Origin: Bacteroidaceae bacterium
Lineage (GTDB): Bacteria > Bacteroidota > Bacteroidia > Bacteroidales > Bacteroidaceae
Assembly (NCBI GenBank): GCA_017541025.1
Contig: JAFXZY010000036.1
Span: forward strand, 1-39,194
Length of the DNA: 39,194 nt
Direction: 5' to 3'
Positions within the stretch are counted from its first letter, which is position 1. Each line of letters starts with the position of its first letter. The translations under genes were made by a program, and so were the position numbers. The notes beneath the pieces are model-generated. The model worked only from the letters and a program-made list of their open reading frames with translations, made no database searches and was not told the origin of the DNA. Below, piece by piece: positions 2,776-35,824 of the stretch.

Positions 2776-5270
2776 TATACAGAATAACAAACACAGGGCA
2801 TAAGCATGCTCACCGCGTAAAGAACCGCGAGGAACTGATGGCTTTACGCAACTCCATCGAGAATCTGGATAACCTTGCGAAAGCCCGCAAAGGTGATGCG
2901 GAAGCTAAGGGCAAACTGCTGCAACTGGCTTATAATCTGGGTCACGTAGATGGTGAAATAGCGGGATGCAAGAGTATTGGGAGCTTCTTCTTTCATGACA
3001 TAGACGCCTACGGCGAAAACGATAACGTTAACGATAACGATAACGGGGGTGAGGCTATTAAAGACCTTATCCTTAGTAAAAAGGAAGAGATTGGTTTGGT
3101 GATGTTGGAGAAAAGCGCAAGCGGCGGTTGGCATCTGGTCTGCAAGCGTGTGCCTGGAACCACCATCTTGGAGAACCAAGTGCGTATAGCAACCATTCTT
3201 AAGATAGAAATGGATACCAGCACCAAAGACCTTCAGCGCATTGTGTACAGCACCAGCGGAAGCCCCGAGGATTTGGTTTATCTGGATGATGAACTCTTCA
3301 CCGAACCCATGACTCCCGAAGAGTGTGAACAGGAATACAAGAACCTGAAAGTACGTGTAATGCGTCGTAAAGAGAATGTTCCAGAAGGGGCAAAGAAGAA
3401 GGATAAGCACTATAGGCCGTGGCTTGAAAGCCCCCTCCCTGCTCCCCCTTTGGGGGAGTGCTGTGAAGCAGAGGGGGCAGACCAAGAAACCCTAGTACTC
3501 CCCCAAAGGGGGAGCGGAGAGGGGGCCTTCCCAACGCATTATCACGGCATTCCATTTACTGATATATTGAAGAAATATTGGGAAGTTAATAATAAAGGGT
3601 TTGAGCCTAAGGAGGGAGATAGAGACACATTGACGTTCCAGTTGGCTTGCGACCTAAGGCACATCTGCGGCAAGAACTTTGATTGGTTGGATCAGGTGAT
3701 TCCATGCTACGACAATTTCCCATTGGAAGAGAAGCGCAAAAAGATTCAGAGTGCCCTGAACTCTGACCTTGAGGCCTTCCCTTCGCGCTTACGCAACACG
3801 CTGAACGCATTGGAAGTGAAAAATGACAGAGGTAAGAAGGAAGATGGAAGAGGGAATGACTGTCAACTGTCAACTATCAACTGTCAACTGGAAGAATGGG
3901 GTGATAAGATTGAGGAGCTGAGTAAGGACTATCCTATCCTGAAGGATATTACGCGAGGACTCAAAAAGAACCAATACCCTGCGGCATTGTTTGTGGCGGG
4001 CGGATTCATGATGACGCTGATGACACGTTGCTCGTACCGTTTCTACCATCGTCCTGAGGAGCGGAGAAGGCTGAACAACTCAACCCTTATCATTGGCGAC
4101 CCTGCCAGCGGAAAGAGTTTTGCCAACCGTCTGTACCATCTGTTGGCAGCGCCTATCATAGAGGCTGACCAAGAGGGCAAGAATGCCGTCAATGCCTATC
4201 GTGAACTGATTCGAACCAAGGGTGCCAACAAGGACAAGCCGCAGAAGCCTAAGGTGATTATCCGCGTACATCCGGCACGAACGAGTAATGCTCAGTTCAT
4301 CAACGATATGGTGAATGCTGTGGAGGAAGTGGACGGCGAGAAGATACATCTGCACATGCTGACCTTCGATACAGAGCTGGACAATACGGTGATGGTACAG
4401 AAGGGTGGATCGTGGATTGACAAGATGAGTTTGGAGCTGAAAGCCTTCCACAACGAGGAGGACGGTCAGTCGTATTCTAATACGGATTCTATCCTTCAGG
4501 ACTTTAATGTGTACTGGAATTATATTTACACGGGAACGCCCATCGCCTTGAAGAAGAAGGTGAACGAGCAGAACTTCGGAAGCGGTCTGGCTACCCGTCT
4601 GACGTGCATCCCGTTGCCTGCCACAAGGTTCAAGATGCTGTCGCGTGAGAGCACGGTGGACTACGAGAGCGACCTGCGTCTGAAGGATTGGGCCTACAAA
4701 CTGGACCGTATGAAGGGCGTACTCTCCTTGCAGAAGATTGTGGATGAGCTATACGACTGGACGGCTCGACGCATGGCAGATGCTGAGGAGAACGAATCGG
4801 ATGCGGAGGAGATGCTGCTGAAACGCTGTGCTTATCACGGGCTGAACTTCTCGGCTCCCTTCATAGTAATGCGCCATTGGGATAAGATGCGTCAGGACGG
4901 CCAGTATTGGTGCGGCGAGTTTGAGACGGATGAGACCGACTGGGCGTTGGCAGAACTGATTGTGAACATCCAGTACGCTTGCCAGCGTCACTTCTTCGGC
5001 GCTATGGCTGAGGCTTACTTTGAGAACAAGAACCGAATTGCCAGTGTGAATGTGCAGCGCAAGAAAAAAACGTACGAAGGGTTCAGCCGTCTGCCTGAGG
5101 AGTTCACCGTAGAGGATGTGATGAGGTGCTTTAAGATTGACAATGAAGGTTATGCCCGAGTTAGAATAAAACGATTGACGGATGACCATTTAGTTGAAAA
5201 GTTAAATGATGGACGTCAGGTTGGTAACGAAACATCGATATATCGCAAAACGGGCGTTATTATGTTGTAA
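2772..5270 (+). CDS. VirE-N / DUF3987 primase-helicase-like protein, 832 aa
   Basis: The N-terminal third resembles the BT4734/VirE-N fold (VDGEIAGCKSIGSFFFHDID, then SASGGWHLVCKR and RIVYSTSGSPEDL), related to archaeo-eukaryotic primases. A primase-C-like helical segment follows (residues about 270-330, DRDTLTFQLACDLRHICG). The C-terminal half is DUF3987, with a Walker A motif IIGDPASGKS near residue 440. Such proteins are taken to act in replication or mobilisation of Bacteroidales mobile elements. Three dispersed repeats sit inside the ORF without breaking it: 3018-3044 (NDNVNDNDN), 3430-3526 (ending VLPQRGSGEGAF) and 3860-3887 (CQLSTINCQL). All fall before the ATPase domain, probably in loops or linkers. 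Confidence 0.75.
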   Translation: MIYRITNTGHKHAHRVKNREELMALRNSIENLDNLAKARKGDAEAKGKLLQLAYNLGHVDGEIAGCKSIGSFFFHDIDAYGENDNVNDNDNGGEAIKDLILSKKEEIGLVMLEKSASGGWHLVCKRVPGTTILENQVRIATILKIEMDTSTKDLQRIVYSTSGSPEDLVYLDDELFTEPMTPEECEQEYKNLKVRVMRRKENVPEGAKKKDKHYRPWLESPLPAPPLGECCEAEGADQETLVLPQRGSGEGAFPTHYHGIPFTDILKKYWEVNNKGFEPKEGDRDTLTFQLACDLRHICGKNFDWLDQVIPCYDNFPLEEKRKKIQSALNSDLEAFPSRLRNTLNALEVKNDRGKKEDGRGNDCQLSTINCQLEEWGDKIEELSKDYPILKDITRGLKKNQYPAALFVAGGFMMTLMTRCSYRFYHRPEERRRLNNSTLIIGDPASGKSFANRLYHLLAAPIIEADQEGKNAVNAYRELIRTKGANKDKPQKPKVIIRVHPARTSNAQFINDMVNAVEEVDGEKIHLHMLTFDTELDNTVMVQKGGSWIDKMSLELKAFHNEEDGQSYSNTDSILQDFNVYWNYIYTGTPIALKKKVNEQNFGSGLATRLTCIPLPATRFKMLSRESTVDYESDLRLKDWAYKLDRMKGVLSLQKIVDELYDWTARRMADAEENESDAEEMLLKRCAYHGLNFSAPFIVMRHWDKMRQDGQYWCGEFETDETDWALAELIVNIQYACQRHFFGAMAEAYFENKNRIASVNVQRKKKTYEGFSRLPEEFTVEDVMRCFKIDNEGYARVRIKRLTDDHLVEKLNDGRQVGNETSIYRKTGVIML
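3018..3044 (+). repeat. AACGAT/GTTAAC array, copy 2, in a coding region
   Basis: Identical over 27 nt to 1869-1895. It starts exactly on a codon boundary (codon 83 of the primase-like gene), spans nine codons and encodes NDNVNDNDN. Because the unit is 6 nt, copy-number change would keep the frame. Confidence 0.75.
3430..3526 (+). repeat. Two inverted GC-rich palindromic elements in a coding region
   Basis: The first unit runs 3430-3478. Its ends are GCCCCCTC and GAGGGGGC, and it has an inner perfect hairpin CTCCCCC-TTT-GGGGGAG (3442-3458). The second, 3495-3526, holds CTCCCCC-AAA-GGGGGAG (3498-3514) and ends GGAGAGGGGGC. It is close to the reverse complement of the left part of the first unit. 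Both are read through in frame. The second unit is identical over 32 nt to 5460-5491. Confidence 0.8.
3860..3887 (+). repeat. Heptamer array in a coding region, four CTRTCAA units
   Basis: Four units (CTGTCAA twice, CTATCAA, CTGTCAA) encode CQLSTINCQL inside the primase-like protein. Shifted by one base, the 28 nt at 3861-3888 are the exact reverse complement of 1436-1463. At 7 nt per unit, gain or loss of one unit would break the frame. Confidence 0.75.
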
Positions 5271-24574: not shown

Positions 24575-26590
24575 ATGAAAAAGTTTCCCTTGCTTATACT
24601 GGCGGTATTTATTCTCCCCTTTCACGGGCGAGTTAGAGGGGGACTTTTTGCCCAGGATCACCAGTTGCATGAGGTACAGGTGGAAGCCTCGCGTCGCATG
24701 AAAGATGCCGGTGTGCAGCAGACCATTTTGGATACCACACTACTGCATCAGAATATTGCCCTCAGTATGTCGGACATCCTGTCGCAGCACTCCACACTCT
24801 TCATTAAGAGTTATGGTCGTGCCACAGAATCAACAGCAGAGTTTCGTGGTACCTCACCCAGTCATACACAAGTGCTGTGGAACGGTATGAAGATTAATTC
24901 GCCTATGATTGGCACCGTAGATTTCAGTACCATTCCTTCTTATTTTGTGGATAACGCCAGACTGTTGCACGGAGCTTCTTCGTTGACCGTTACAGGAGGC
25001 GGATTGGGTGGAGCCGTGGATATGCAGACTTTACCTCTTTTCAATCAGGGCTACTCTATACAATATATACAGGGAATAGGTTCCTATAGTACTTACGATC
25101 AGTTCCTGCGTTTTACCTATGGAAACGACCGTTGGAGTACCAGTACCAGGGCGGTGTATTCCACCTCGAAGAACGATTTTAAGTACACCAACTACGATAA
25201 GATAGGTCATCCTGTTGAACGTAACAAGAGCGGCTATTTCGATGATGTACATGTTTTACAGGATGTCTATTACAATAGTCCCGCTGCAGGTCGCTTTGGT
25301 GCAATGCTTTGGTTCGCTCACAGTTTGCGCGGTCTGCCTTTCCTAAGTGTAGATTATAAAGACAATACAGATTTCAAGAACGAGCATAAGCAGGATGTCA
25401 TTCGCGGTGTACTGAGTTGGGATAAGTCCTTCGAAAAGTGGAATCTGGGAGCCCGTGCAGGCTATGTATGGCAGGATATTGCATACGACTATACTACAAC
25501 AAGGGAAACAGTAAACACCGATATTACCCACTCTCGCAGTATCAGTCATCAGGGATATCTGCAGGCTAGTGCCGACTGGATGCCCCGTTCGAATTGGCTG
25601 CTGACAGCTAATGCCTCAGTTTATTACAATCATGTGAAGAGCGAGGACAAAAGTCCTTTCCATATTGGTGATAACTACAATCTGGGCAGGGCAGAATATA
25701 ACCTGAATATTTCTGCTAAGTATCGGCCGGTTAAGAATCTTACGCTCTCTGCTGTACTCCGGGAAGAATGTTACAAAAACGATTTTATACCCGTTATTCC
25801 CGCATTTTTTGCCGAGTATGTTTTTACACCCCGTTTTATAAAGAAGAATGGAGCTTCGCATATTATCCTGAAAACTTCCGTAGCCAGAAACTACCGTTAT
25901 CCCACAATGGATGACCTGTATTTTAAGCCTGGAGGCAATCCCAATCTGCAACCTGAGCAGGGTTTTACCTATGATGGCGGTATTGAGGGATTCCTGCAGG
26001 TTCGATCCTTCTCGCTGAAAATGAACTTTTCAGCCTTTGATTCCTACATCACTGACTGGATTCTATGGACACCCAATGCCAAGGGCTATTGGCAGCCTTC
26101 GAACTTGAAAAAGGTTCATAACTATGGCACAGAGATGATGGTAACCGCAGAACTTAAGATGAGACATCAATGGAAAATATCTCTCACAGGCAACTATGCC
26201 TATACGCCCAGCATCAATAAGAGCGACAAGCTAGATGCTAACGATGCCTCTTATGGAAAGCAGTTGGTTTATGTGCCACGTCATTCTGCTAATCTGAATG
26301 GACGTCTTTCTTGGCGAACATGGAGCTTGTCTTATCAGTGGACTTACTACAGCGAGCGTTTTACAACTACCAGTAACGAGGTGTCGTATATAACTGGTAG
26401 GTTGAAACCTTATTATATGAATGACATTACGCTGGAGAAAACTTTTCAATGGCGCAAGGTACATGCGTCGCTGAAGGGTGTGATTAATAATCTGTTGGGT
26501 TCAGAGTACGTTACCGTTCTCTCCCGACCAATGCCGGGCCGTAACTTTGAGATATTTTTGGAGATAAAACCGCAATGGGGAAGAAAGTGA
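24575..26590 (+). CDS. btuB: TonB-dependent cobalamin receptor BtuB, 671 aa
   Basis: Outer-membrane transporter for corrinoids. The plug (residues about 30-150) has VQQTILDTTLLHQNIALSM, STAEFRGTSPSHTQVLWNGM and LLHGASSLTVTGGGLGGAVD. A 22-strand barrel follows, and the C-terminus is of the usual type (MPGRNFEIFLEIKPQW). Its place between btuG and btuF behind the riboswitch supports cobalamin. A palindromic element (24613-24648) lies in the signal-peptide region and adds HGRVRGG between the hydrophobic core and the likely cleavage site after LFAQ. This may weaken export. Confidence 0.85.
   Translation: MKKFPLLILAVFILPFHGRVRGGLFAQDHQLHEVQVEASRRMKDAGVQQTILDTTLLHQNIALSMSDILSQHSTLFIKSYGRATESTAEFRGTSPSHTQVLWNGMKINSPMIGTVDFSTIPSYFVDNARLLHGASSLTVTGGGLGGAVDMQTLPLFNQGYSIQYIQGIGSYSTYDQFLRFTYGNDRWSTSTRAVYSTSKNDFKYTNYDKIGHPVERNKSGYFDDVHVLQDVYYNSPAAGRFGAMLWFAHSLRGLPFLSVDYKDNTDFKNEHKQDVIRGVLSWDKSFEKWNLGARAGYVWQDIAYDYTTTRETVNTDITHSRSISHQGYLQASADWMPRSNWLLTANASVYYNHVKSEDKSPFHIGDNYNLGRAEYNLNISAKYRPVKNLTLSAVLREECYKNDFIPVIPAFFAEYVFTPRFIKKNGASHIILKTSVARNYRYPTMDDLYFKPGGNPNLQPEQGFTYDGGIEGFLQVRSFSLKMNFSAFDSYITDWILWTPNAKGYWQPSNLKKVHNYGTEMMVTAELKMRHQWKISLTGNYAYTPSINKSDKLDANDASYGKQLVYVPRHSANLNGRLSWRTWSLSYQWTYYSERFTTTSNEVSYITGRLKPYYMNDITLEKTFQWRKVHASLKGVINNLLGSEYVTVLSRPMPGRNFEIFLEIKPQWGRK
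24613..24648 (+). repeat. GC-rich palindromic element in the btuB signal peptide
   Basis: CTCCCC (24614-24619), CGGGCGAG and GAGGGGG form the arms of the same element class as 2175-2233 and 33821-33855. It is read in frame as LPFHGRVRGGLF. Confidence 0.65.
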
Positions 26591-27846
26591 AGACTGAAAG
26601 AATGAAGGCTGCGAGTAAGCGAGAGGCTACTGAGGCCTTTAGAGTAGCCACTGAATGTGGCTGCGGCCTCACAAAGGGGAGTGAATCCCCACTCACGACG
26701 GAGGCCAACCAGATAGGTCTGAGTTCTTCCGAGCGTGAGCAGGCTCGAACGAAGTTCAAAAGTGAAAAATTGATATTGGTGCTTTTGTTGGTTTGGGGAT
26801 TGGTTGCATGTGGTGGACATCGGGTTGGAAAAGAAACTGCTGACGGTGACACTTTAAACCTGCGCTATGCCCGCAATCTGACCATTGTGGAATATCCCGA
26901 ATATACAAAGGTCACTATCCGTAATCCGTGGGACACCACTCGCGTACTGAATTCATATACGTTGGTGAAAGAGTCAGGGGGAAAGAAAGGCGAAGTGGTT
27001 GTTCCGCTGAAGAATGCTGCTGTCTTTACCTCCGTTCACTGCTCCTTGCTCATGGAGTTAGGTTGTCAGGAGCGCATAGGCGGTATCTGTGAACTGGAAT
27101 ACATTCACATTCCTTATGTTCATAAGGGAGTAAAGGAGGGCCGTATCCTGGATTTGGGCAATGGTATGGAGCCAAACTTGGAACGCATCATGGATTTGCA
27201 GCCGGATGCCATCATGCTGAGTCCTTTCGAGAACAGTGGCGGCTATGGTCGTTTAGAGCGCATGGGTATTCCTCTTATAGAATGTGCCGAGTACATGGAA
27301 AACTCCCCTCTGGCCCGTGCCGAATGGATAAGGTTCTATGGACGGCTTTTTGGAAAGGCTGAGTTGGTGGACAGTCTGTTTTTGCAAGTGGAGCATTCTT
27401 ATCTGCAACTTCGTGAGGCTGCCTCTCATGCAAAACAGAAGCCTCGTTTAATCTGTGAGATGCCGCAGAGCGGGTACTGGTACGTGCCGGGTGGCAAGAG
27501 TACGATGGGCATTATGTACCATGATGCAGGTGCCGATTATCTTTTCAGTGATGTAGAAGGAAGCGGCAGTACGGCACTTAGCATAGAAAGAGTTCTGGAT
27601 AGGGCTTTGACGGCTCAGGTCTGGCTTATCAAGCATCACGGACCGCTCAACAAGGAGCAGATACTTCAGGATGTTCCAGCGTTGCGTAATGTAAAAGCCA
27701 AAATATGTCTTTGCGACACTTACAACAGCGGCTTTTATGAGCAGACACCCTTCCATCCCGATGTTTTATTGCGTAATCTTATTCATATTTTGCATCCTGA
27801 GCTTGGTATTAAAGAGGAAAAAGCGTATTTTTGTCCCTTGGAATGA
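26575..27846 (+). CDS. btuF: Corrinoid ABC transporter substrate-binding lipoprotein BtuF, 423 aa
   Basis: Periplasmic corrinoid-binding protein feeding BtuCD. The type III binding fold is visible from residue about 95: VFTSVHCSLLMELGC, LGNGMEPNLERIMDLQPDAI, GRLERMGIPLIEC and YVPGGKSTMGIMYHDAGADY. The lipobox LVACGG is near residue 80, preceded by the hydrophobic stretch LILVLLLVWGL. The start given overlaps btuB by 16 nt and leaves about 65 residues before the signal peptide. That extension is encoded by a complex palindromic element. A start at a TTG or GTG near 26770-26779 would give a normal signal peptide, so the true start is uncertain. Confidence 0.8.
   Translation: MGKKVKTERMKAASKREATEAFRVATECGCGLTKGSESPLTTEANQIGLSSSEREQARTKFKSEKLILVLLLVWGLVACGGHRVGKETADGDTLNLRYARNLTIVEYPEYTKVTIRNPWDTTRVLNSYTLVKESGGKKGEVVVPLKNAAVFTSVHCSLLMELGCQERIGGICELEYIHIPYVHKGVKEGRILDLGNGMEPNLERIMDLQPDAIMLSPFENSGGYGRLERMGIPLIECAEYMENSPLARAEWIRFYGRLFGKAELVDSLFLQVEHSYLQLREAASHAKQKPRLICEMPQSGYWYVPGGKSTMGIMYHDAGADYLFSDVEGSGSTALSIERVLDRALTAQVWLIKHHGPLNKEQILQDVPALRNVKAKICLCDTYNSGFYEQTPFHPDVLLRNLIHILHPELGIKEEKAYFCPLE
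26600..26765 (+). repeat. Complex palindromic element at the btuB-btuF junction
   Basis: Several hairpins follow each other: AGCCAC-GTGGCT (26645-26661), GAGGCC and GGCCTC flanking it, GGGG-CCCC with GAGTG-CACTC (26675-26695), and GAGC-GCTC further on. The frame stays open through the whole stretch. The edges have heptamer-like AAGTGAA runs. It looks like an insertion that displaced the btuF start. Confidence 0.55.
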
Positions 27847-28853
27847 GACAGAGTGCCATTATCATAGCTTTAATTGTGGTTATGCTGCTCTTAGGAGTGG
27901 CCAATCTGATATGGGGCTCGCTTCGTATTCCTGCTGCCGATGCAGTACATATTCTGCTGGGCGGACAGGTTGAGGCGCACCCACAGTGGACTTTTATCAT
28001 TCGCGAAAGTCGTTTCCCGCAAATGCTTACTGCATTGCTTTGCGGCATGTCGCTCAGTACCTGTGGACTTCTGTTGCAGACACTTTTCCGCAATCCTTTG
28101 GCTGGTCCCAGCATTCTGGGTATTGATGCTGGTGCCAACTTAGGTGTTGCTTTGGTAATGCTCTTTTTGGGTGGCACCGTAACATTAGGTAGCCTGAGTG
28201 TAAGCGGATACTTGCTAGTTATTGTGGCAGCCATGCTGGGTGCTTTGTGCATTATGCTGCTGCTGCTCTTGCTCTCTTCTGTGCTGCGTAATCAGGTGAT
28301 GCTTCTTATTACGGGTGTCATCATCAGTTACGTCACAGGTTCCATCATCTCTCTGCTTAACTACAGCGCTACGGAAGAGGGTGTTCACAACTACATTGTC
28401 TGGGGAATGGGTAACTTCAGTGGCGTAAGTCTGGATCGGTTGCCCCTTTATTGCATTCTATTAGCTATTGGGATGATTGGGGCAGTCCTGTTGGTGAAAC
28501 CTTTGGATGCTATTCTTTTGGGAGAACGCTATGCTACAAATTTAGGCGTAAATGTACATAAGACACGCAACTGGCTGTTACTATGCACGGGCTTGCTTAC
28601 TGCTACTACAACGGCTTTTTGCGGCCCCATCTCCTTCTTGGGCTTGGCGGTTCCGCATATTGCCCGCATGACATTGCGCACCAGTCAGCACCGCATTTTA
28701 TTGCCTGGTACCATGCTCATGGGTGCCTGCTTGACACTGTTGTGTAATTTGCTTTGCAACGTGCCCAGTAGTGGCAGCATTATTCCTGTGAATGTGCTTA
28801 CGCCCCTTATAGGAGCCCCCGTGATATTGTATGTGATCTTGAAAAAACATTAA
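27843..28853 (+). CDS. btuC: Corrinoid ABC transporter permease BtuC, 336 aa
   Basis: FecCD-type permease with about ten hydrophobic segments. Characteristic blocks are RFPQMLTALLCGMSLSTCGL, LQTLFRNPLAGPSILGIDAG and, near the C-terminus, GPISFLGLAVPHIAR. The ATG at 27843 overlaps the btuF stop (ATGA) and is preferred to a TTG at 27831. Its ATPase partner btuD comes only after an intervening hexosaminidase gene. Confidence 0.9.
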   Translation: MRQSAIIIALIVVMLLLGVANLIWGSLRIPAADAVHILLGGQVEAHPQWTFIIRESRFPQMLTALLCGMSLSTCGLLLQTLFRNPLAGPSILGIDAGANLGVALVMLFLGGTVTLGSLSVSGYLLVIVAAMLGALCIMLLLLLLSSVLRNQVMLLITGVIISYVTGSIISLLNYSATEEGVHNYIVWGMGNFSGVSLDRLPLYCILLAIGMIGAVLLVKPLDAILLGERYATNLGVNVHKTRNWLLLCTGLLTATTTAFCGPISFLGLAVPHIARMTLRTSQHRILLPGTMLMGACLTLLCNLLCNVPSSGSIIPVNVLTPLIGAPVILYVILKKH

Positions 28854-28870
28854 TTATAAATTTCATTCGT

Positions 28871-30469
28871 ATGAAAAGACTTACATCATTCTTTATGGCA
28901 GCAGCAATGGTTATTGCAGGCTATGCCAATGTGACTTACCAGGTTATCCCTCTGCCTCGTTCCGTCAATATGTTGCCCGGAGGTAACGTGGTTTTACTCG
29001 TTAAGGGACAGGGTGTTGCCTATCCTGCCGAGAATGCAAAGATGTTGCGTAACGCTCAGTTTGCACAGGAGTATCTGGGTGTTATTCCCGAGGTGGCTTC
29101 CAAAAAGTCGAAGGCCATCATGCAGATCTCTTTAGGTCTGCAAAACCCCAATCCTGATGCCTATACCATTACTATTGATAAAAAAGGTATTAACATTCAG
29201 GGTGCCAGCGAGAGTGGTGTCTTCTATGCCATCCAAACCCTTCGCAAGAGCATAGAGGGAGAAAAAGGCGATACTGTTCGGCTTCCCTATGTAATCATTC
29301 AGGATGAGCCTCGTTTCGGTTATCGAGGTACCATGTTAGACTGTGCCCGTCATTTCTTCCCCATCGAGTTCATCAAGCAGTACATAGACGTTCTGGCATT
29401 GCATGGTGTAAACCAGTTCCATTGGCATCTTACCGATGATCAGGGTTGGCGCTTCGAAGTGAAGGCACTGCCTGAGTTGGCAAAAAAAGCTGGTTATCGT
29501 CCGCATACCATTATCGGTAAGAACGTGGGTTTGCGCGATGCTGCCAATACCGTCTTCGACGATACACCCGAGGAAGGTTACTATACCCAGAATCAGATGA
29601 AGGCCATTGTAGAATATGCTGCAGAGCGCTATATCACGGTTATTCCCGAGATTGACCTTCCAGGTCACATGGTGGCAGCCCTGAGCGTTTATCCCGAACT
29701 GGGTTGTACAGGTGGTCCTTATTCTGTTTGGTGCCAGTGGGGTATTTCTGACGATGTGTTGTGTGCTGGTAATCCCAAAACGCTGGATTTCCTGAAGAAA
29801 GTCTATGGTGAACTTTGCGATGTTTTCCCCAGCAAATTTATCCATATTGGTGGTGACGAGAGTCCCCGTCGAAAATGGCAGACCTGCCCCAAGTGTCAGG
29901 CTAAGATGAAGGAACTGGGACTGACAAAGGAAGCTGAGTTACAGACTTATATCAATAAGGAAATGGAAAAATTCCTGGCTTCTAAGGGTCGTGAACTTAT
30001 CGGTTGGGACGAGACACTGGAAGGTGGTCTCAGCGAGAACGCCACCGTTATGTCATGGCGTGGTTACAATGGTGGTATTCAGGCTGCTCGTCAGCATCAC
30101 CGCGTTATCATGACTCCCACCAATAACTGTTATATTGACTATTACCAGTTGAAGGACCATAACGCACAGCCTATGGCCATTGGCGGATACCTTCCCGTAA
30201 GTATGGTGTATAGCATGGAACCGGTTCCTGCCGAGTTGACTCCCGAGGAGGGTAAGTACATCCTGGGAGCTCAGTGCAATTTGTGGACAGAGTATGTGGC
30301 AAGTCCAGACCATGCTATGTATATGCTGTTGCCCCGCTTGGCTGCTATGTCAGAGGTGCAGTGGATGCAACCCGAAGCTAAGAACTACGAGAATTTCTGC
30401 AAGCGTTTACCGCTCATTCAGCAGACCTATCGTCGTCTGGGCTATAAATACTGCACGGCTATCGAATAA
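28871..30469 (+). CDS. Exported beta-N-acetylhexosaminidase, GH20, 532 aa
   Basis: Releases terminal GlcNAc or GalNAc from glycans by substrate-assisted catalysis. A signal peptide (TSFFMAAAMVIAGYA) is followed by the GH20b-like N-terminal domain (residues about 25-145) and the catalytic barrel. RYRGTML-type FGYRGTMLDCARHFF, NQFHWHLTDDQGWR and the catalytic pair in FIHIGGDESPR are present, with Trp-rich substrate-site residues (WDETLEGG, LWTEYVA). It is inserted between btuC and btuD, 17 nt after btuC and 109 nt before btuD, which is unusual for a B12 operon. Confidence 0.9.
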   Translation: MKRLTSFFMAAAMVIAGYANVTYQVIPLPRSVNMLPGGNVVLLVKGQGVAYPAENAKMLRNAQFAQEYLGVIPEVASKKSKAIMQISLGLQNPNPDAYTITIDKKGINIQGASESGVFYAIQTLRKSIEGEKGDTVRLPYVIIQDEPRFGYRGTMLDCARHFFPIEFIKQYIDVLALHGVNQFHWHLTDDQGWRFEVKALPELAKKAGYRPHTIIGKNVGLRDAANTVFDDTPEEGYYTQNQMKAIVEYAAERYITVIPEIDLPGHMVAALSVYPELGCTGGPYSVWCQWGISDDVLCAGNPKTLDFLKKVYGELCDVFPSKFIHIGGDESPRRKWQTCPKCQAKMKELGLTKEAELQTYINKEMEKFLASKGRELIGWDETLEGGLSENATVMSWRGYNGGIQAARQHHRVIMTPTNNCYIDYYQLKDHNAQPMAIGGYLPVSMVYSMEPVPAELTPEEGKYILGAQCNLWTEYVASPDHAMYMLLPRLAAMSEVQWMQPEAKNYENFCKRLPLIQQTYRRLGYKYCTAIE

Positions 30470-30578
30470 AGTTTAATGTTTATTGCTTAAAGACAGTTTT
30501 TGAGTTTATGGCTTAAAGGTATTTCCTGTGTTTCAAGTTTAACGGGTTTATTCCTTCATACTGTTAATTGTCAACAAT

Positions 30579-31334
30579 ATGTTGCTTCAGCATTTAACAA
30601 CAGGTTATAACTCTCGTGTTGTAACTACTGATATCAACGCGTCATTGGTTCCGGGGGAGCTGACAAGCCTCCTGGGATCCAATGGAGTGGGTAAGAGCAC
30701 CTTGCTTCGTACCCTCTGTACTTTCCTTCCTCCTTTGGGAGGCGAGATTATCTTGCAGGGAAAGTCCGTCAGTTCTCTCTCAAGCGCTGAACTCAGTAAG
30801 CTTATTGGTGTGGTTCTGACAGAGCGTCCCGATGTACAGAATATGACGGTGCGTGATATGGTGAGCATGGGGCGCAGTCCTTATACCGGCTTCTGGGGCA
30901 GGCTTACGGAAGAAGATAACCGCTACGTCACAGAAGCGATGCAACTGGCAGGCATTACCTCCTTGGAGAAACGTATGTTCAGTACCCTCAGTGATGGCGA
31001 GCGTCAGAAGGTAATGATTGCTAAGGTGTTAGCGCAGCAGACTCCTGTTATCCTCTTAGATGAGCCTACAGCCTTCCTTGATTTTCCCAGTAAGGTGGAG
31101 ATGATGCGTCTTCTGCGCCGACTGGCTCATGAGATGCAGAAGATTATTTTCCTTAGCACGCACGATGTAGAGATGGCTCTCCAACTTAGCGACCGTCTTT
31201 GGATTATGCATCCCGGAGAGGTTGTGATAGGAAAGCCTGCAGAACTCTCCAAGAGTGGCGAACTTTCTCGTTTTATTCAAGCAGACGGCATCCGATTCGA
31301 TCCGGATTTAATGAGTTACAGAATAACTGTATAG
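30579..31334 (+). CDS. btuD: Corrinoid ABC transporter ATPase BtuD, 251 aa
   Basis: Energises BtuC. Walker A is GSNGVGKSTL (residues about 34-43), the signature is LSDGERQKVMIAKVLAQ, and Walker B is VILLDEPTAFLDF, followed by the switch His in FLSTHDVEMAL. The family length is about 250. It follows the GH20 gene after 109 nt, in which no terminator or consensus promoter was seen, so it is probably in the same transcript. The cobQ GTG start follows its stop by 1 nt. Confidence 0.9.
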   Translation: MLLQHLTTGYNSRVVTTDINASLVPGELTSLLGSNGVGKSTLLRTLCTFLPPLGGEIILQGKSVSSLSSAELSKLIGVVLTERPDVQNMTVRDMVSMGRSPYTGFWGRLTEEDNRYVTEAMQLAGITSLEKRMFSTLSDGERQKVMIAKVLAQQTPVILLDEPTAFLDFPSKVEMMRLLRRLAHEMQKIIFLSTHDVEMALQLSDRLWIMHPGEVVIGKPAELSKSGELSRFIQADGIRFDPDLMSYRITV

Positions 31335-31335
31335 A

Positions 31336-32802
31336 GTGAAGTCCCTTCATCCCATATTGTTCGTCGGTACAGGCAGTGATGTGGGCAAAAGCATTGTTGC
31401 CGCAGCCTTTTGCCGGATCTTCAGACAAGACGGTTACCGGCCGGCTCCTTTTAAGGCCCAGAATATGGCACTGAACAGTTACGTCACACCAGACGGTTTG
31501 GAGATTGGCCGGGCACAGGCTGTTCAAGCAGAAGCGGCTGGTATTCCTTGCCACACGGATATGAATCCCATTCTCCTGAAACCCAACTCCGACCAAACGT
31601 CCCAGGTTGTGCTTCACGGCAAGCCCATAGGCAATAAAAGTGCCTACGACTATTGGAAAAAGCCTACCCCTAACCCCTCCCAAGGGGGAGTGGAACTGGA
31701 TTTTAGGAAAGAAGTCTGTGATGCATTCGACCGTTTGTCCTCGCTTTATAATCCTATCGTTCTAGAGGGTGCAGGCAGCATTTCAGAAATAAATCTAAGA
31801 GACACTGACTTGGTGAATCTCCCTATGGCCCGTCATGCTAATGCAGATGTCATTCTGGTAGGTGATATTGACCGAGGCGGCGTCTTTGCCAGCGTCTATG
31901 GTAGCATTATGTTGCAGACACCCGAAGACAGAAAACTCATAAAGGGCATTATCATTAATAAGTTCAGGGGAGATATGCGGCTCTTTGAAGAGGGCAAGCG
32001 TATGTTGGAGGAACTTTGTGGCATACCCGTCCTTGGCGTTATACCTTATTATAAAGATATTCATATTGAGGAGGAAGACTCTGTTAGTCTTGCCAGAAAA
32101 AACTCTCAACTTTCAACTCTCAACTCTCAGCTTAATGTGGCTATAGTGCTGTTGCGTCATATCAGTAATTTTACGGACTTTGATGTGCTTGAACGTGACC
32201 CACGCGTCAATCTTTTCTATACAAATAATCCCAAAGACATTATACAGGCCGACATTATCATTCTACCTGGGACAAAATCTACGTTGGACGACCTGCTGGA
32301 ACTCCGCCGTAATGGTTGTGCTCAAGCCATCTTGCAAGCTCACCGGGATGGTAGGATGGTAATAGGTATTTGTGGTGGCTACCAGATGTTGGGACAGACG
32401 ATTGAGGATCCGGAAGGCATAGAAGGCAGTATTGCCACATTGCCTGGCCTTGGTCTCTTACCCATTCATACTACGATGGGTAAAGAAAAGACAACAAAGC
32501 AAGTAACCTTCATGTTCGAAGGCCAGGAGTGCAAGGGCTATGAGATTCATCAAGGCATTTCAGATACCGACGAAGCCATCATGCAGACCGGACATTGCAT
32601 CGGTACCTATATTCATGGTTTTCTGGATAATCAGCCCGTCATAGAACACCTTTTAAGTGAAAAGGGAAAAGTCAAAAGTGAAAAATTTGCTGCCGCAGAC
32701 CCAGCCTCTTTCAAGGAGGAACAGTATAATAAGTTGGCTGACCATGTGCGCCAGCATGTGGATATGGAACGAATCTATCAAATACTGACCAGCGATGATT
32801 GA
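31336..32802 (+). CDS. cobQ: Cobyric acid synthase CobQ, 488 aa
   Basis: Amidates four side chains of adenosylcobyrinic diamide using glutamine and ATP. The N-terminal dethiobiotin-synthase-like domain has FVGTGSDVGKS (P-loop) and FKAQNMALNSYVT. The C-terminal glutamine amidotransferase has the nucleophile Cys in IGICGGYQMLG and the His in YIHGFLDN. Starts at GTG. Three dispersed repeats are read in frame: a palindrome at 31662-31693 (TPNPSQGG), a heptamer array at 32101-32128 (NSQLSTLNSQL) and another at 32655-32682 (SEKGKVKSEK). All lie between recognised blocks, so activity may be kept. Confidence 0.9.
   Translation: MKSLHPILFVGTGSDVGKSIVAAAFCRIFRQDGYRPAPFKAQNMALNSYVTPDGLEIGRAQAVQAEAAGIPCHTDMNPILLKPNSDQTSQVVLHGKPIGNKSAYDYWKKPTPNPSQGGVELDFRKEVCDAFDRLSSLYNPIVLEGAGSISEINLRDTDLVNLPMARHANADVILVGDIDRGGVFASVYGSIMLQTPEDRKLIKGIIINKFRGDMRLFEEGKRMLEELCGIPVLGVIPYYKDIHIEEEDSVSLARKNSQLSTLNSQLNVAIVLLRHISNFTDFDVLERDPRVNLFYTNNPKDIIQADIIILPGTKSTLDDLLELRRNGCAQAILQAHRDGRMVIGICGGYQMLGQTIEDPEGIEGSIATLPGLGLLPIHTTMGKEKTTKQVTFMFEGQECKGYEIHQGISDTDEAIMQTGHCIGTYIHGFLDNQPVIEHLLSEKGKVKSEKFAAADPASFKEEQYNKLADHVRQHVDMERIYQILTSDD
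31662..31693 (+). repeat. GC-rich palindromic element in cobQ
   Basis: ACCCCTAACCCCTCCC joined to AAGGGGGAG forms the hairpin CTCCC-AAG-GGGAG. It is read as TPNPSQGG, close to TPNPSPVGEG in the Cys-rich protein at 2175-2233. Confidence 0.7.
32101..32128 (+). repeat. Heptamer array in cobQ, four AACTYTC units
   Basis: AACTCTC, AACTTTC, AACTCTC, AACTCTC, read as NSQLSTLNSQL. Gain or loss of one unit would shift the frame. Confidence 0.75.
32655..32682 (+). repeat. Second heptamer array in cobQ, four AAGKSAA units
   Basis: AAGTGAA, AAGGGAA, AAGTCAA, AAGTGAA near the 3' end of cobQ, read as SEKGKVKSEK. A similar AAGTGAA run flanks the element at the btuF start. Confidence 0.65.
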
Positions 32803-33805
32803 AGGACACGGCGACGACGCATACAAGTACCAGGGCATAAGGGTCAATTTCAGTTCCAATGTCTATAATCATTTCTGCCATGAAGGGCTATTCTGCTATT
32901 TGGCCGACAAGTTGGACAATGTGGTTTCTTATCCAGAGCCTGCGCCTGCCCGTCTGGAGAAATGTATTGCCCAACTGTTGAACTTGGAGCACGAAGAAGT
33001 CTGCGTCACCAATGGGGCTACCGAGGCAATTTACCTGATTGCCCAGACTTTCAGGGGCAAGAGTTCGTCTATCCTCATGCCCACATTCTCTGAGTATCGT
33101 GATGCCTGCCAGATTCACGGACATAAGATACATTCCATTCATAACTCCCAGCTCTCCACTCTCGATTCTCAACTTATCTGGCTTTGCAATCCCAATAATC
33201 CAACGGGGACTGTTCTCGATAAGGACCAGTTGATACAGGCTATACAGCAACATCCCCAGTCACTTTATGTTCTGGATGCCAGCTATGCGCCATTTACAGA
33301 GGAACCTTTGCTGAATGCTGCGGAAGCCTGTATGTTTCCCAACGTCCTGATGTTGCATTCTATGACCAAGGAATATGCTATCCCTGGTTTGCGCCTGGGT
33401 TATATTACCGCTCATAAGAATCTTTTGAGTGAGGTAAGGCGACAACGTATGCCTTGGTCTGTCAACCAGGTGGCTATAGATGCGGGTTATTACCTTTTAG
33501 GTCACCCCGAAGAGTTTCGTTTGCCCTTGCACGAGTTAATGCATGAGCGACAGCGTGTAGCTGATAAACTGTCTGCACTGGGTTGTATCGAGGTCTGGCC
33601 CTCGCAGACCCATATCCTACTCTGTAAGCTTAGAATGGGCAAGGCTGCTGCCCTGAAAGAGTATCTGGCAAAGGAACATGGTTTGCTGATACGCGATGCC
33701 AGCAATTTCGAAGGGCTTGACGATTCTTTCTTCCGCATTGCCGTTCAAGAGAAGACCGAAAACGATTTGTTATTACACGCAATAGAGAAATGGCTATGCC
33801 TGTAG
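32795..33805 (+). CDS. cobD: CobD-like PLP-dependent threonine-phosphate decarboxylase, 336 aa
   Basis: Fold-type I PLP enzyme of the HisC/CobD group, expected to make (R)-1-amino-2-propanol phosphate for the nucleotide loop. Visible blocks are NFSSNVYNHFCHEGL, CVTNGATEAIYLIA, LCNPNNPTG and the PLP Lys in HSMTKEYAIPGLRLGY, with the final Arg in FFRIAVQ. Its place between cobQ and cbiB supports CobD over histidinol-phosphate aminotransferase. The start overlaps the cobQ 3' end. A degenerate heptamer array (33143-33170) encodes NSQLSTLDSQL before the PLP-binding region. Confidence 0.85.
   Translation: MIEGHGDDAYKYQGIRVNFSSNVYNHFCHEGLFCYLADKLDNVVSYPEPAPARLEKCIAQLLNLEHEEVCVTNGATEAIYLIAQTFRGKSSSILMPTFSEYRDACQIHGHKIHSIHNSQLSTLDSQLIWLCNPNNPTGTVLDKDQLIQAIQQHPQSLYVLDASYAPFTEEPLLNAAEACMFPNVLMLHSMTKEYAIPGLRLGYITAHKNLLSEVRRQRMPWSVNQVAIDAGYYLLGHPEEFRLPLHELMHERQRVADKLSALGCIEVWPSQTHILLCKLRMGKAAALKEYLAKEHGLLIRDASNFEGLDDSFFRIAVQEKTENDLLLHAIEKWLCL
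33143..33170 (+). repeat. Heptamer array in the cobD-like gene
   Basis: Four degenerate units (AACTCCC, AGCTCTC, CACTCTC, GATTCTC). It is read in the same frame as the cobQ array, giving NSQLSTLDSQL, nearly identical to NSQLSTLNSQL in CobQ. Confidence 0.65.
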
Positions 33806-33820
33806 ATTATTTAATTATAG

Positions 33821-33855
33821 GCTCTCCTCTTTTGGGGAGCGGGGAGAGGGGCCTT
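33821..33855 (+). repeat. GC-rich palindromic element in the cbiB N-terminus
   Basis: GCTCTCCTCTTTTGGGGAGC followed by GGGGAGAGGGGCC is the same element type as 3495-3526. Read as GSPLLGSGERGLLF, ahead of the first membrane segment. Confidence 0.7.
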
Positions 33856-34085
33856 CTCTTCACTTTATTGTTGGGCTGGCTGCTTGACCTCCTTCTGGGA
33901 GACCCCGCCAGGCTCCCGCATCCTGTTGTGGGGTTCGGAAAGGCCATTGCTTTCTGCGAACACAGGCTCAATAGGGGAAGCCATCGGAAAGTGAAAGGTG
34001 CCTTCGTTGCCATTGGGTTAATTGCTGTGACTTATATCGCAACTTGCTTCCTATGCTATGTACTTAATTACATCGGCCGCACATT

Positions 34086-34106
34086 CTTCACTCTTCACTC
34101 TTCACT
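34086..34106 (+). repeat. Three perfect CTTCACT heptamers at the cbiB frame break
   Basis: Units at 34086-34092, 34093-34099 and 34100-34106. The frame before the array and the frame after it differ by an offset that one extra 7-nt unit corrects. A T7 tract at 34129-34135 lies beyond the premature stop and cannot by itself explain the break. Confidence 0.8.
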
Positions 34107-34784
34107 TGCTTCTTCGAAGCCTTAATCGTTTTTTTCTGCCTTGCCGGCACCACCCTTATCCGTGAGGTCCGTGCTGTCTTTCTTGCTCTTGATCGCTCGT
34201 TGGAGGAAGGCCGTAAGCAAGTTGCTCGCATCGTAGGGCGAGATACTTCAGAACTCTCGGCTCAGGAAGTGAGAACGGCGGCCTTGGAAACCTTGGCAGA
34301 GAATCTCAGCGATGGCGTGATAGCTCCGCTCTTCTGGTTTGCTTTTTTGGGCGTACCTGGCATGTTGGCGTATAAGATGGTTAACACCCTTGACTCGATG
34401 ATTGGTTATAAGACAGACCGTTATAAGGACTTCGGTTGTTGGGCGGCACACATCGACGATATTGCAAACTATATCCCCGCCCGTCTTACCGCCTTGCTGA
34501 TGGTTGTTGTGGCAGGCAAGCCACAACTGGCGAGCTTTGTGTGGAGGAACGGCCGCCGCCACGCTTCGCCCAACAGCGGTTATCCGGAAGCGGCTCTCGC
34601 TGGCATCTTGAACTGTCGTTTTGGTGGTTCTCATTATTACTTTGGCCAACTCTTTGATAAACCCTATATTGGCAACAATGACCGCCCCCTCACCACCACC
34701 GACATGCGGACCGCGATCCGCGTGAACCGCACGGCAGAGGTGCTGATGCTCCTCATTGTTATTGCCGTTCAGATAATCGTAACT

Positions 34785-35824
34785 TTAACGTGAGTTCGAT
34801 GAATTCGTATTAGAAGAGTGTGAGTTGATTATCAGTGTATTTGACGACTTGTATGGCAGGTTTCTTCGGGAAGCAGCAGTATGCCGCAATAGCAGACATG
34901 GCGTTGACGAAGAAGTTGTCAAAACACCTGTGTCTGGAGTGCTCCACCTGTGCAATGTTCTTCAACTCATCATTGATTGTCTCTATGATAGCCCGCTTCC
35001 TGAGCAGCACCCTGTCCGATACAGACATCAGCGCACCCTTCATGTTGCTCTTGAGTTTGGTGATGAGCTGTATTCCGTCCACAAAGAGTTTTTGGAAAAG
35101 CCCCTTGCTGATGTATCCCTTGTCGCCGACCAGCTTGCCGTAAAGGAAATCCGTAAATGCCTTGTACTCCAGCGGCTTCCTGTCGTCTACATCCCCAGGC
35201 GTAATCATGAAGTTGAGCAATTCGCCCATCTCGTTGCAGATGAGATGGAGCTTGAAGCCGAAAAACCATCCCATGGAGCATTTCCCGCGCTGGGCGATGC
35301 CTTTGAAAACCTTGTGAATGTGAATGCGCTGGTTTTTTGCACACACGCAGCGGCGTACTGTCCACGAAGCTGATGCCAGTGTATTTGCCCAAAAGCACCT
35401 TCTTGATGAAGATTGTCAGGGGAATGGCTACGGTGCGCTCCAGTTCCACGAAGCGGTTATAGGAAACAACACGTGGGAAGAGGTGGCGGAGGTGCTTGCA
35501 GACGTGCTCCAAATAGAAATGCTTGAGGCAGCGATAGCCTGAGTCATGGAAAAGAATCATGATAAGCATGACTTCCGCCTTCGAAAGCGTACCGTCGCGG
35601 TGATATTTCCGTTTGGAAGGGGCCTCTATGGTATATTTCTTCGTCATACGGTCAAAAAACTTGCAGAATTCATCCGCCATAAAGAAAATTTCCGTAACTT
35701 TGTCCTCGGTGAGCATAGCGATTATTGTTTGTACTACTTTAGTAGTTTGGGCACTATAAAGGTACAACAATTTTCGCTAATCACCAAATATTTAGACAAT
35801 TATATTTCGTCGAACTCACGTTAA
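34785..35824 (-). mobile_element. IS982-family insertion sequence
   Basis: The ends are imperfect inverted repeats: TTAACGTGAGTTCGATGAA (34785-34803) and its near reverse complement at 35806-35824 (18 of 19 match). One transposase gene lies inside. No clear target duplication was found; the exact outer edge is uncertain by a few bases because both ends read TTAA. It sits at the last codons of cbiB, and the cbiB stop TGA (34791-34793) is inside the left repeat. Confidence 0.8.
34810..35716 (-). pseudogene. IS982-family transposase, frameshifted
   Basis: A DDE transposase in two frames. The upstream part has MLTEDKVTEIFFMADEFCKF and the first catalytic Asp in ISFVDSTPLRVC. The downstream part has GKCSMGWFFGFKLHL, the second Asp in LVGDKGYISKG and the Glu in RAIIETINDELKN. 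The break is at a run of six A residues on the coding strand (35333-35338); five would give the usual RVCKNQRI. Because the needed shift is +1, a programmed -1 shift at the A run does not explain it. Probably inactive, unless the extra base is a sequencing error. Confidence 0.8.

Follow-up and report, generated by a model that had tools for sequence, protein, structure and literature searches.

The window, by which we mean the whole 39,194-nucleotide stretch analysed here (contig JAFXZY010000036.1 of assembly GCA_017541025.1, from a Bacteroidaceae bacterium whose genome is of a rumen Prevotella-like kind), contains a cbiB gene that changes reading frame at a short tandem array of the heptad CTTCACT. 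The locus raises the question of whether this array is a slippage switch of cobamide synthesis, the point at which a gene has begun to be lost, or an artefact of the assembly. The gene lies on the same strand as btuB-, btuF-, btuC- and btuD-like genes, cbiP and cobD, with one unrelated gene (28871-30469) among them (Table 1).

Table 1. Features of the window at and around the split cbiB gene.
Feature	Coordinates	Strand	Evidence or remark
btuB-like TonB-dependent receptor	24575..26590	+	PF00593, PF07715
btuF-like periplasmic binding protein	26575..27846	+	PF01497
Presumed btuC-like permease	27831..28853	+	Open reading frame; label from position and sequence
btuD-like ABC transporter ATPase	30579..31334	+	PF00005
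cbiP (cobyric acid synthase), open	31336..32802	+	PF07685, PF01656
AACTCTC heptad array within cbiP, in frame	32101..32129	+	No length change in G051, G128
AAGTGAA heptad array within cbiP, in frame	32655..32684	+	Complement of CTTCACT family
cobD-like aminotransferase gene, open in the window	32795..33805	+	PF00155
cbiB upstream part, own frame, stop just beyond array	33790..34125	+	PF03186 positions 1-70, E 7.7e-16
Three perfect CTTCACT units, cbiB frame change	34086..34106	+	Repeat listing, shuffle test
cbiB downstream part, other frame	34104..34793	+	PF03186 positions 81-281, E 9.2e-87
Insertion sequence adjoining cbiB 3' end	34784..35824		PF13612; second copy on contig C16

The original prediction placed the break in cbiB exactly at three perfect CTTCACT units and held that the offset between the two frames is one that +7 nt or -14 nt would repair. 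Both statements are borne out. In a profile search the upstream and downstream frames each matched PF03186 above the curated cut-off, the two covered stretches of the profile lying in two frames and not in a single open reading frame, and the same offset was recovered from the open reading frames. The three-unit array and the change of frame occupy the same place in the gene. Period-7 runs in cbiB reach a length of 15, compared with a maximum of 10 over 1000 dinucleotide shuffles of the gene, while a search of the window for CTTCACTCTTCACT with at most one mismatch returned no further site (0.01 matches expected; two matches in 0 of 100 shuffles). The array is a tandem repeat within a reading frame. 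Because seven is not divisible by three and the unit, read from the sequence, is without a stop codon in all frames of the coding strand, each change in unit number would move the downstream frame but leave the array itself open. No second CbiB was found in the same genome, whose draft assembly comprises 3.28 Mb in 95 contigs and is 84% complete.

Close relatives of the window illustrate what the gene looks like when intact. A scan of named genomes identified at least 565 encoding stretches, and the best 80, which were kept, are mostly labelled Prevotella, Prevotellaceae or Bacteroidales, many being from ruminants by title. In G128 (RUG13701; its locus L080 is an exact duplicate over the compared stretch and was counted once) the flanks are as in the window, the array consists of four CTTCACT units and cbiB occupies one open frame. 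The two sequences are 93.5% identical over 31747-34739. The additional unit of G128 is the sole indel there with a net effect on the frame; differences of 6 bases at 34509 and at 34532 both preserve it. This unit-exact length difference within nearly collinear DNA is one line of evidence for a switch. It agrees with the view that the break is a whole-unit copy-number difference (three units and split in the window, four and open in G128), and, as had been predicted, four units restore reading through the named membrane segment. These ON and OFF alleles, which differ by whole units, were found between close relatives, with one genome per species, and not within one strain. A second relative, G051 (RUG14681), is 95.7% identical to the window over 30566-34103, with no indel ahead of the array and a one-base gap in the alignment at 34099, bordering an insert. 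Its segment is 82 bases longer than that of the window and in frame. About 75 bases (L071, about 3910-3985) lie inside the CTTCACT array of G051, and this insert matches L138 at 88% over 69 bases and window positions 26729-26754 at 96% over 26 bases; these matches suggest that another dispersed element landed in the array with the frame kept.

The same two relatives allow the condition of the split gene to be assessed. Apart from the change of frame at the array, no stop or frame change was found in either part of cbiB. Synonymous and nonsynonymous codon differences, respectively, number 18 and 4 against G128 and 12 and 2 against G051 in the downstream piece dn1, and 11 and 6 (G128) and 20 and 6 (G051) in piece dn2. 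The intact frames in combination with these counts make the larger part of cbiB look still constrained. In the short upstream piece, where the corresponding differences are 1 and 2 (G128) and 2 and 3 (G051), the codon counts alone give no sign of constraint. Further decay of the gene, which would have spoken against a switch, is thus not apparent: there is no frame break beyond the array, and dn1 carries few nonsynonymous codons relative to G128.

To what extent the break is peculiar to this genome was addressed through a survey of 140 cbiB sequences (the window and 139 loci), 116 of them distinct. Over the tested stretch 113 of the 116 remain in a single frame, the window being among those that are split. 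Period-7 runs of at least 12 occur at this spot in 18 of the 116 distinct loci and are built from many different units; runs of the same length with periods 5, 6, 8 or 9 occur in none of the 116. In L073, which comes from an uncultured assembly, seven units follow one another without interruption. The gene is out of frame in 3 of the 18 array-bearing loci (the window, L109 from G110 and L169 from G106) against 0 of the 98 others (Fisher p 0.003), and p is 0.010, 0.006 and 0.0009 at run thresholds of 8, 10 and 14, respectively. As the test ignores relatedness among the loci and the thresholds were chosen after the data were seen, these p values serve only as a guide. With 15 of the 18 array-bearing copies in frame, the OFF state appears uncommon. 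A family-wide search gave a CbiB match in 173 of 399 genomes and, counted from the genome table, two matches each in four of them (G000, the genome of the window; G110; G224; G458); a frame split was found in G000 and G110 only. Two matches were otherwise explained by pieces on two contigs (G224) or by two full copies (G458), while the single match in G235 is truncated by a contig end and G099 has no more than a short C-terminal fragment that scores under the cut-off, and none of these four was accepted as a split gene. G106, which was absent from the family-wide draw, came from a genus search in which 56 of 139 genomes matched. No copies of the array site were found in viral contigs.

The two other split cbiB genes were each compared with a relative. 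Over 774 bases at cbiB, G110 and G086 share 97.8% identity, and at the cbiB array they differ by a single base, not by a whole unit. The cobD gene of the same pair contains a TGGTCAA array (about 6020-6060 of L197) that has one unit fewer in G110, where the gene is split, than in G086, where cobD is open over 321 codons; both cobD and cbiB are therefore split in G110. The cbiP genes of the pair are distinguished by three small-indel clusters with sums of -12, -9 and +39; all are divisible by three, which selection for ON frames would be expected to produce. The cbiB gene of G106 is 14 bases shorter at the array than that of G105 and is split, while G105 is in one frame there, although the similarity of these two genomes reaches only 79-83% and their array is an imperfect one. 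Of the frame flips, two are thus unit-exact (window cbiB and G110 cobD) and one is of twice the unit length (G106 cbiB). Together, window against G128 for cbiB and G110 against G086 for cobD indicate that heptad arrays within the coding sequence of B12 genes vary in length between relatives and that the frame is flipped as a result.

Arrays are also found at other positions in these genes. Among 80 loci, runs of at least 12 lie near residues 115, 256, 394 and 441 of CbiP, near residue 115 of CobD and, in the downstream piece of CbiB, at a second linker around residues 133-142. The respective array counts are 9, 2 and 8, and 0 at periods 5, 6, 8 and 9. The array units differ between species, which suggests tolerance of arrays at these sites and not descent of a single array. 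CbiP showed frame changes in 2 of 78 loci and CobD in 3 of 57, where two of the three rows belong to a single genome; none was recorded in the 8 loci for BtuD or the 17 for BtuC. Counting against a slippage switch, the cbiP breaks in L130 and L095 and the cobD break in L086 are away from arrays, an array in L095 lying some 20-30 residues upstream of the break. In the window, G051 and G128, length variation is present at the cbiB array and absent at both neighbouring cbiP arrays; the AAGTGAA array, unchanged in length in G051 and G128, shows small indels in the more distant G081.

The CTTCACT family is not confined to the cobamide genes. Across the genome 46 partly overlapping matches were detected with at most two mismatches, compared with 0 for the reversed control pattern, and CTTCACT/CTTCATT arrays are dispersed through the genome both within and outside long open frames. 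Thirty of the 46 matches, taken as loci, correspond to 20 distinct arrays, one being that of the window. Eight of the 19 others are within an open frame of at least 190 codons; a coarse Pfam comparison of eight frames at seven loci, made without homologues, established no second clear broken gene at these arrays. Other repeats were observed in passing. A second dispersed repeat of about 35 bases lies at the start of cbiB (33819-33855), with 87-94% matches on contigs C95, C89, C41 and C78, and contig C88 (L202, 15132-15304) contains a tandem array with a period of about 43 and GTTATC-like pieces just beyond the de novo cobamide cluster. At the other end of the gene, the left end of the insertion sequence provides the cbiB stop codon. 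The transposase of this element is encoded in two overlapping frames. A copy on contig C16 is 89% identical to it over its full coordinates, and short fragments resembling its right end are present on other contigs.

The explanation that best accommodates these data is that the array is a low-rate heritable ON/OFF slippage switch in cbiB, to which we assign a probability of about 0.55. In this scheme cbiB bears a slippage-prone coding CTTCACT array in the linker ahead of the segment FFEALIVFFCLAGTT, and slipped-strand mispairing would generate the length changes. Gain or loss of a unit would shift the downstream frame with the array remaining open, and the array could regain a unit. Selection would keep cbiB ON in most lineages, while the gene would be OFF in the genome of the window. 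An array of only three or four units is short beside those of neuO and the hmw genes (see below), which argues against a fast switch and, in combination with the unvarying cbiP arrays, leads us to read the site as low-rate and potentially reversible, with one-way loss as the main rival. Slippage in heptads thus probably turns B12-making genes off and perhaps turns them on again.

According to that rival a single slippage event broke cbiB in a B12-importing lineage that is starting to lose the gene, and the repeat is simply a mutational weak spot. Such a history is possible, if the less probable of the two. It is consistent with the shortness of the array, the presence of B12 uptake genes in the genome, the insertion sequence at the very end of cbiB, the preponderance of in-frame genes (113 of 116 loci) and the finding that G110 is out of frame in two pathway genes. 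It does not, however, readily explain why neither part of cbiB has acquired a further frame break, why dn1 has few nonsynonymous changes, why the window array is perfect and the other scanned cobamide genes are open, or why arrays and breaks recur at the same site across lineages. An assembly or consensus error, in which the assembler dropped a unit or merged strains so that the break is unreal, is improbable. The fragmented and incomplete draft and the many similar arrays in the genome lend it some credence, but ordinary short reads easily span 21 to 28 bases, a unit-exact break in cobD of G110 and a 14-base break in cbiB of G106 were found as well, and none of the 98 array-less cbiB loci is out of frame over the tested stretch. 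That the split gene still works, through programmed frameshifting in the array or as two separately translated halves, is very unlikely. In its favour, each part matches the CbiB profile and no frame of the array is closed by a stop; against it, the first ATG, GTG or TTG of the downstream frame is at 34200, beyond FFEALIVFFCLAGTT, and one frame is kept across the stretch in 113 of 116 loci.

If the array acts as a switch, its effect depends on the remainder of the pathway. The same genome also encodes CobT, CobU, CobS and a CbiA-like protein, together with CbiK, CbiC, CbiG, CbiD and tetrapyrrole methylases. These genes are open frames that, with the exception of one weak methylase match, cover at least one profile nearly end to end, as was seen for the ten other cobamide genes scanned; judged by these matches, the genome holds a de novo cobamide (B12) cluster. 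CbiB is described as common to de novo synthesis and salvage, whereas most bacteria use CobU to phosphorylate cobinamide directly (PMC3541065). In the OFF state the conversion of adenosylcobyric acid to adenosylcobinamide phosphate would stop, and a cell with the split gene should lose de novo synthesis and the use of cobyric acid, while the salvage of cobinamide (through CobU, CobT and CobS) and the uptake of finished B12 should be kept. The original prediction was that switching would change which corrinoid precursors can be salvaged. That consequence has to be revised: given the de novo cluster, the effect would be mainly that of producer versus importer and not only a choice of salvaged precursor. 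A broader view, which we consider rather doubtful, is that cobamide synthesis is a contingency pathway in the rumen relatives of Prevotella. Heptad arrays with a variety of units would have arisen at a small set of permissive linkers in CbiP, CobD and CbiB, and slippage in any one of several genes would maintain mixtures of B12 makers and importers.

Most known slippage switches act on surface structures and restriction systems. The closest parallel is neuO of Escherichia coli K1 (CUS-3 prophage), which likewise has a coding heptanucleotide array and is translated to full length only if the number of units fits the frame; the unit is AAGACTC, there are 3 to 53 copies (21 in the strain studied), and the gene is OFF in 42 of 64 complete genomes (PMC13001214). 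The neuO array, however, lies in the 5' region of a gene whose product modifies the surface capsule, and mixed unit numbers were measured in colonies (PMC13001214), whereas the array in cbiB has three or four units, is mid-gene, affects a biosynthetic enzyme and is known here from assemblies. In the hmw1A and hmw2A genes of Haemophilus influenzae, too, strains differ in the copy number of a 7-base unit, with an effect on expression; in contrast to cbiB, these are promoter arrays of 13 to 38 units, in the strains named, that affect transcription of surface adhesins and not the frame (PMC2651432). Frame-shifting slippage in a metabolic gene is exemplified by glpK of Mycobacterium tuberculosis, mentioned in PMC12817950, although there the tract is a homopolymer and both the pathway and the organism differ; a promoter tandem repeat at cysG is reported in the same article.

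With respect to genome-wide dispersal, the CTTCACT family resembles the TAACTGA heptamers of Beggiatoaceae, Cyanobacteria and some Bacteroidetes, for which slippage has been proposed, heptads being the most abundant class in most genomes (PMC4679880). That article also describes the long simple sequence repeats of Mrazek et al. 2007, which are related dispersed repeats. The TAACTGA arrays differ from those in cbiB in being mostly intergenic in the main genome studied and in having one fixed unit. A connection with frame switching of genes for cobamide biosynthesis was not encountered in PMC4679880, whose main text mentions neither Prevotella nor Bacteroides by name. Among titles and opening lines of abstracts on heptad or simple repeats, phase variation, Prevotella and cobamides, none reported that coding heptad arrays switch genes of cobamide biosynthesis by slippage in Bacteroidetes. 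The class of mechanism is therefore already known from neuO, while the class of gene, the taxon and the recurrence look new.

Even if the heptad array were only a mutational weak spot, it would explain the recurrent frame breaks in B12 genes, and it cautions that one assembly is insufficient to call such genomes B12 auxotrophs. Rumen microbes supply the B12 of their host. If the main reading is true, a switch in a vitamin pathway would amount to a heritable coin-toss between producing and importing B12, and the cbiB switch would bear on the upkeep of B12 sharing in the rumen.
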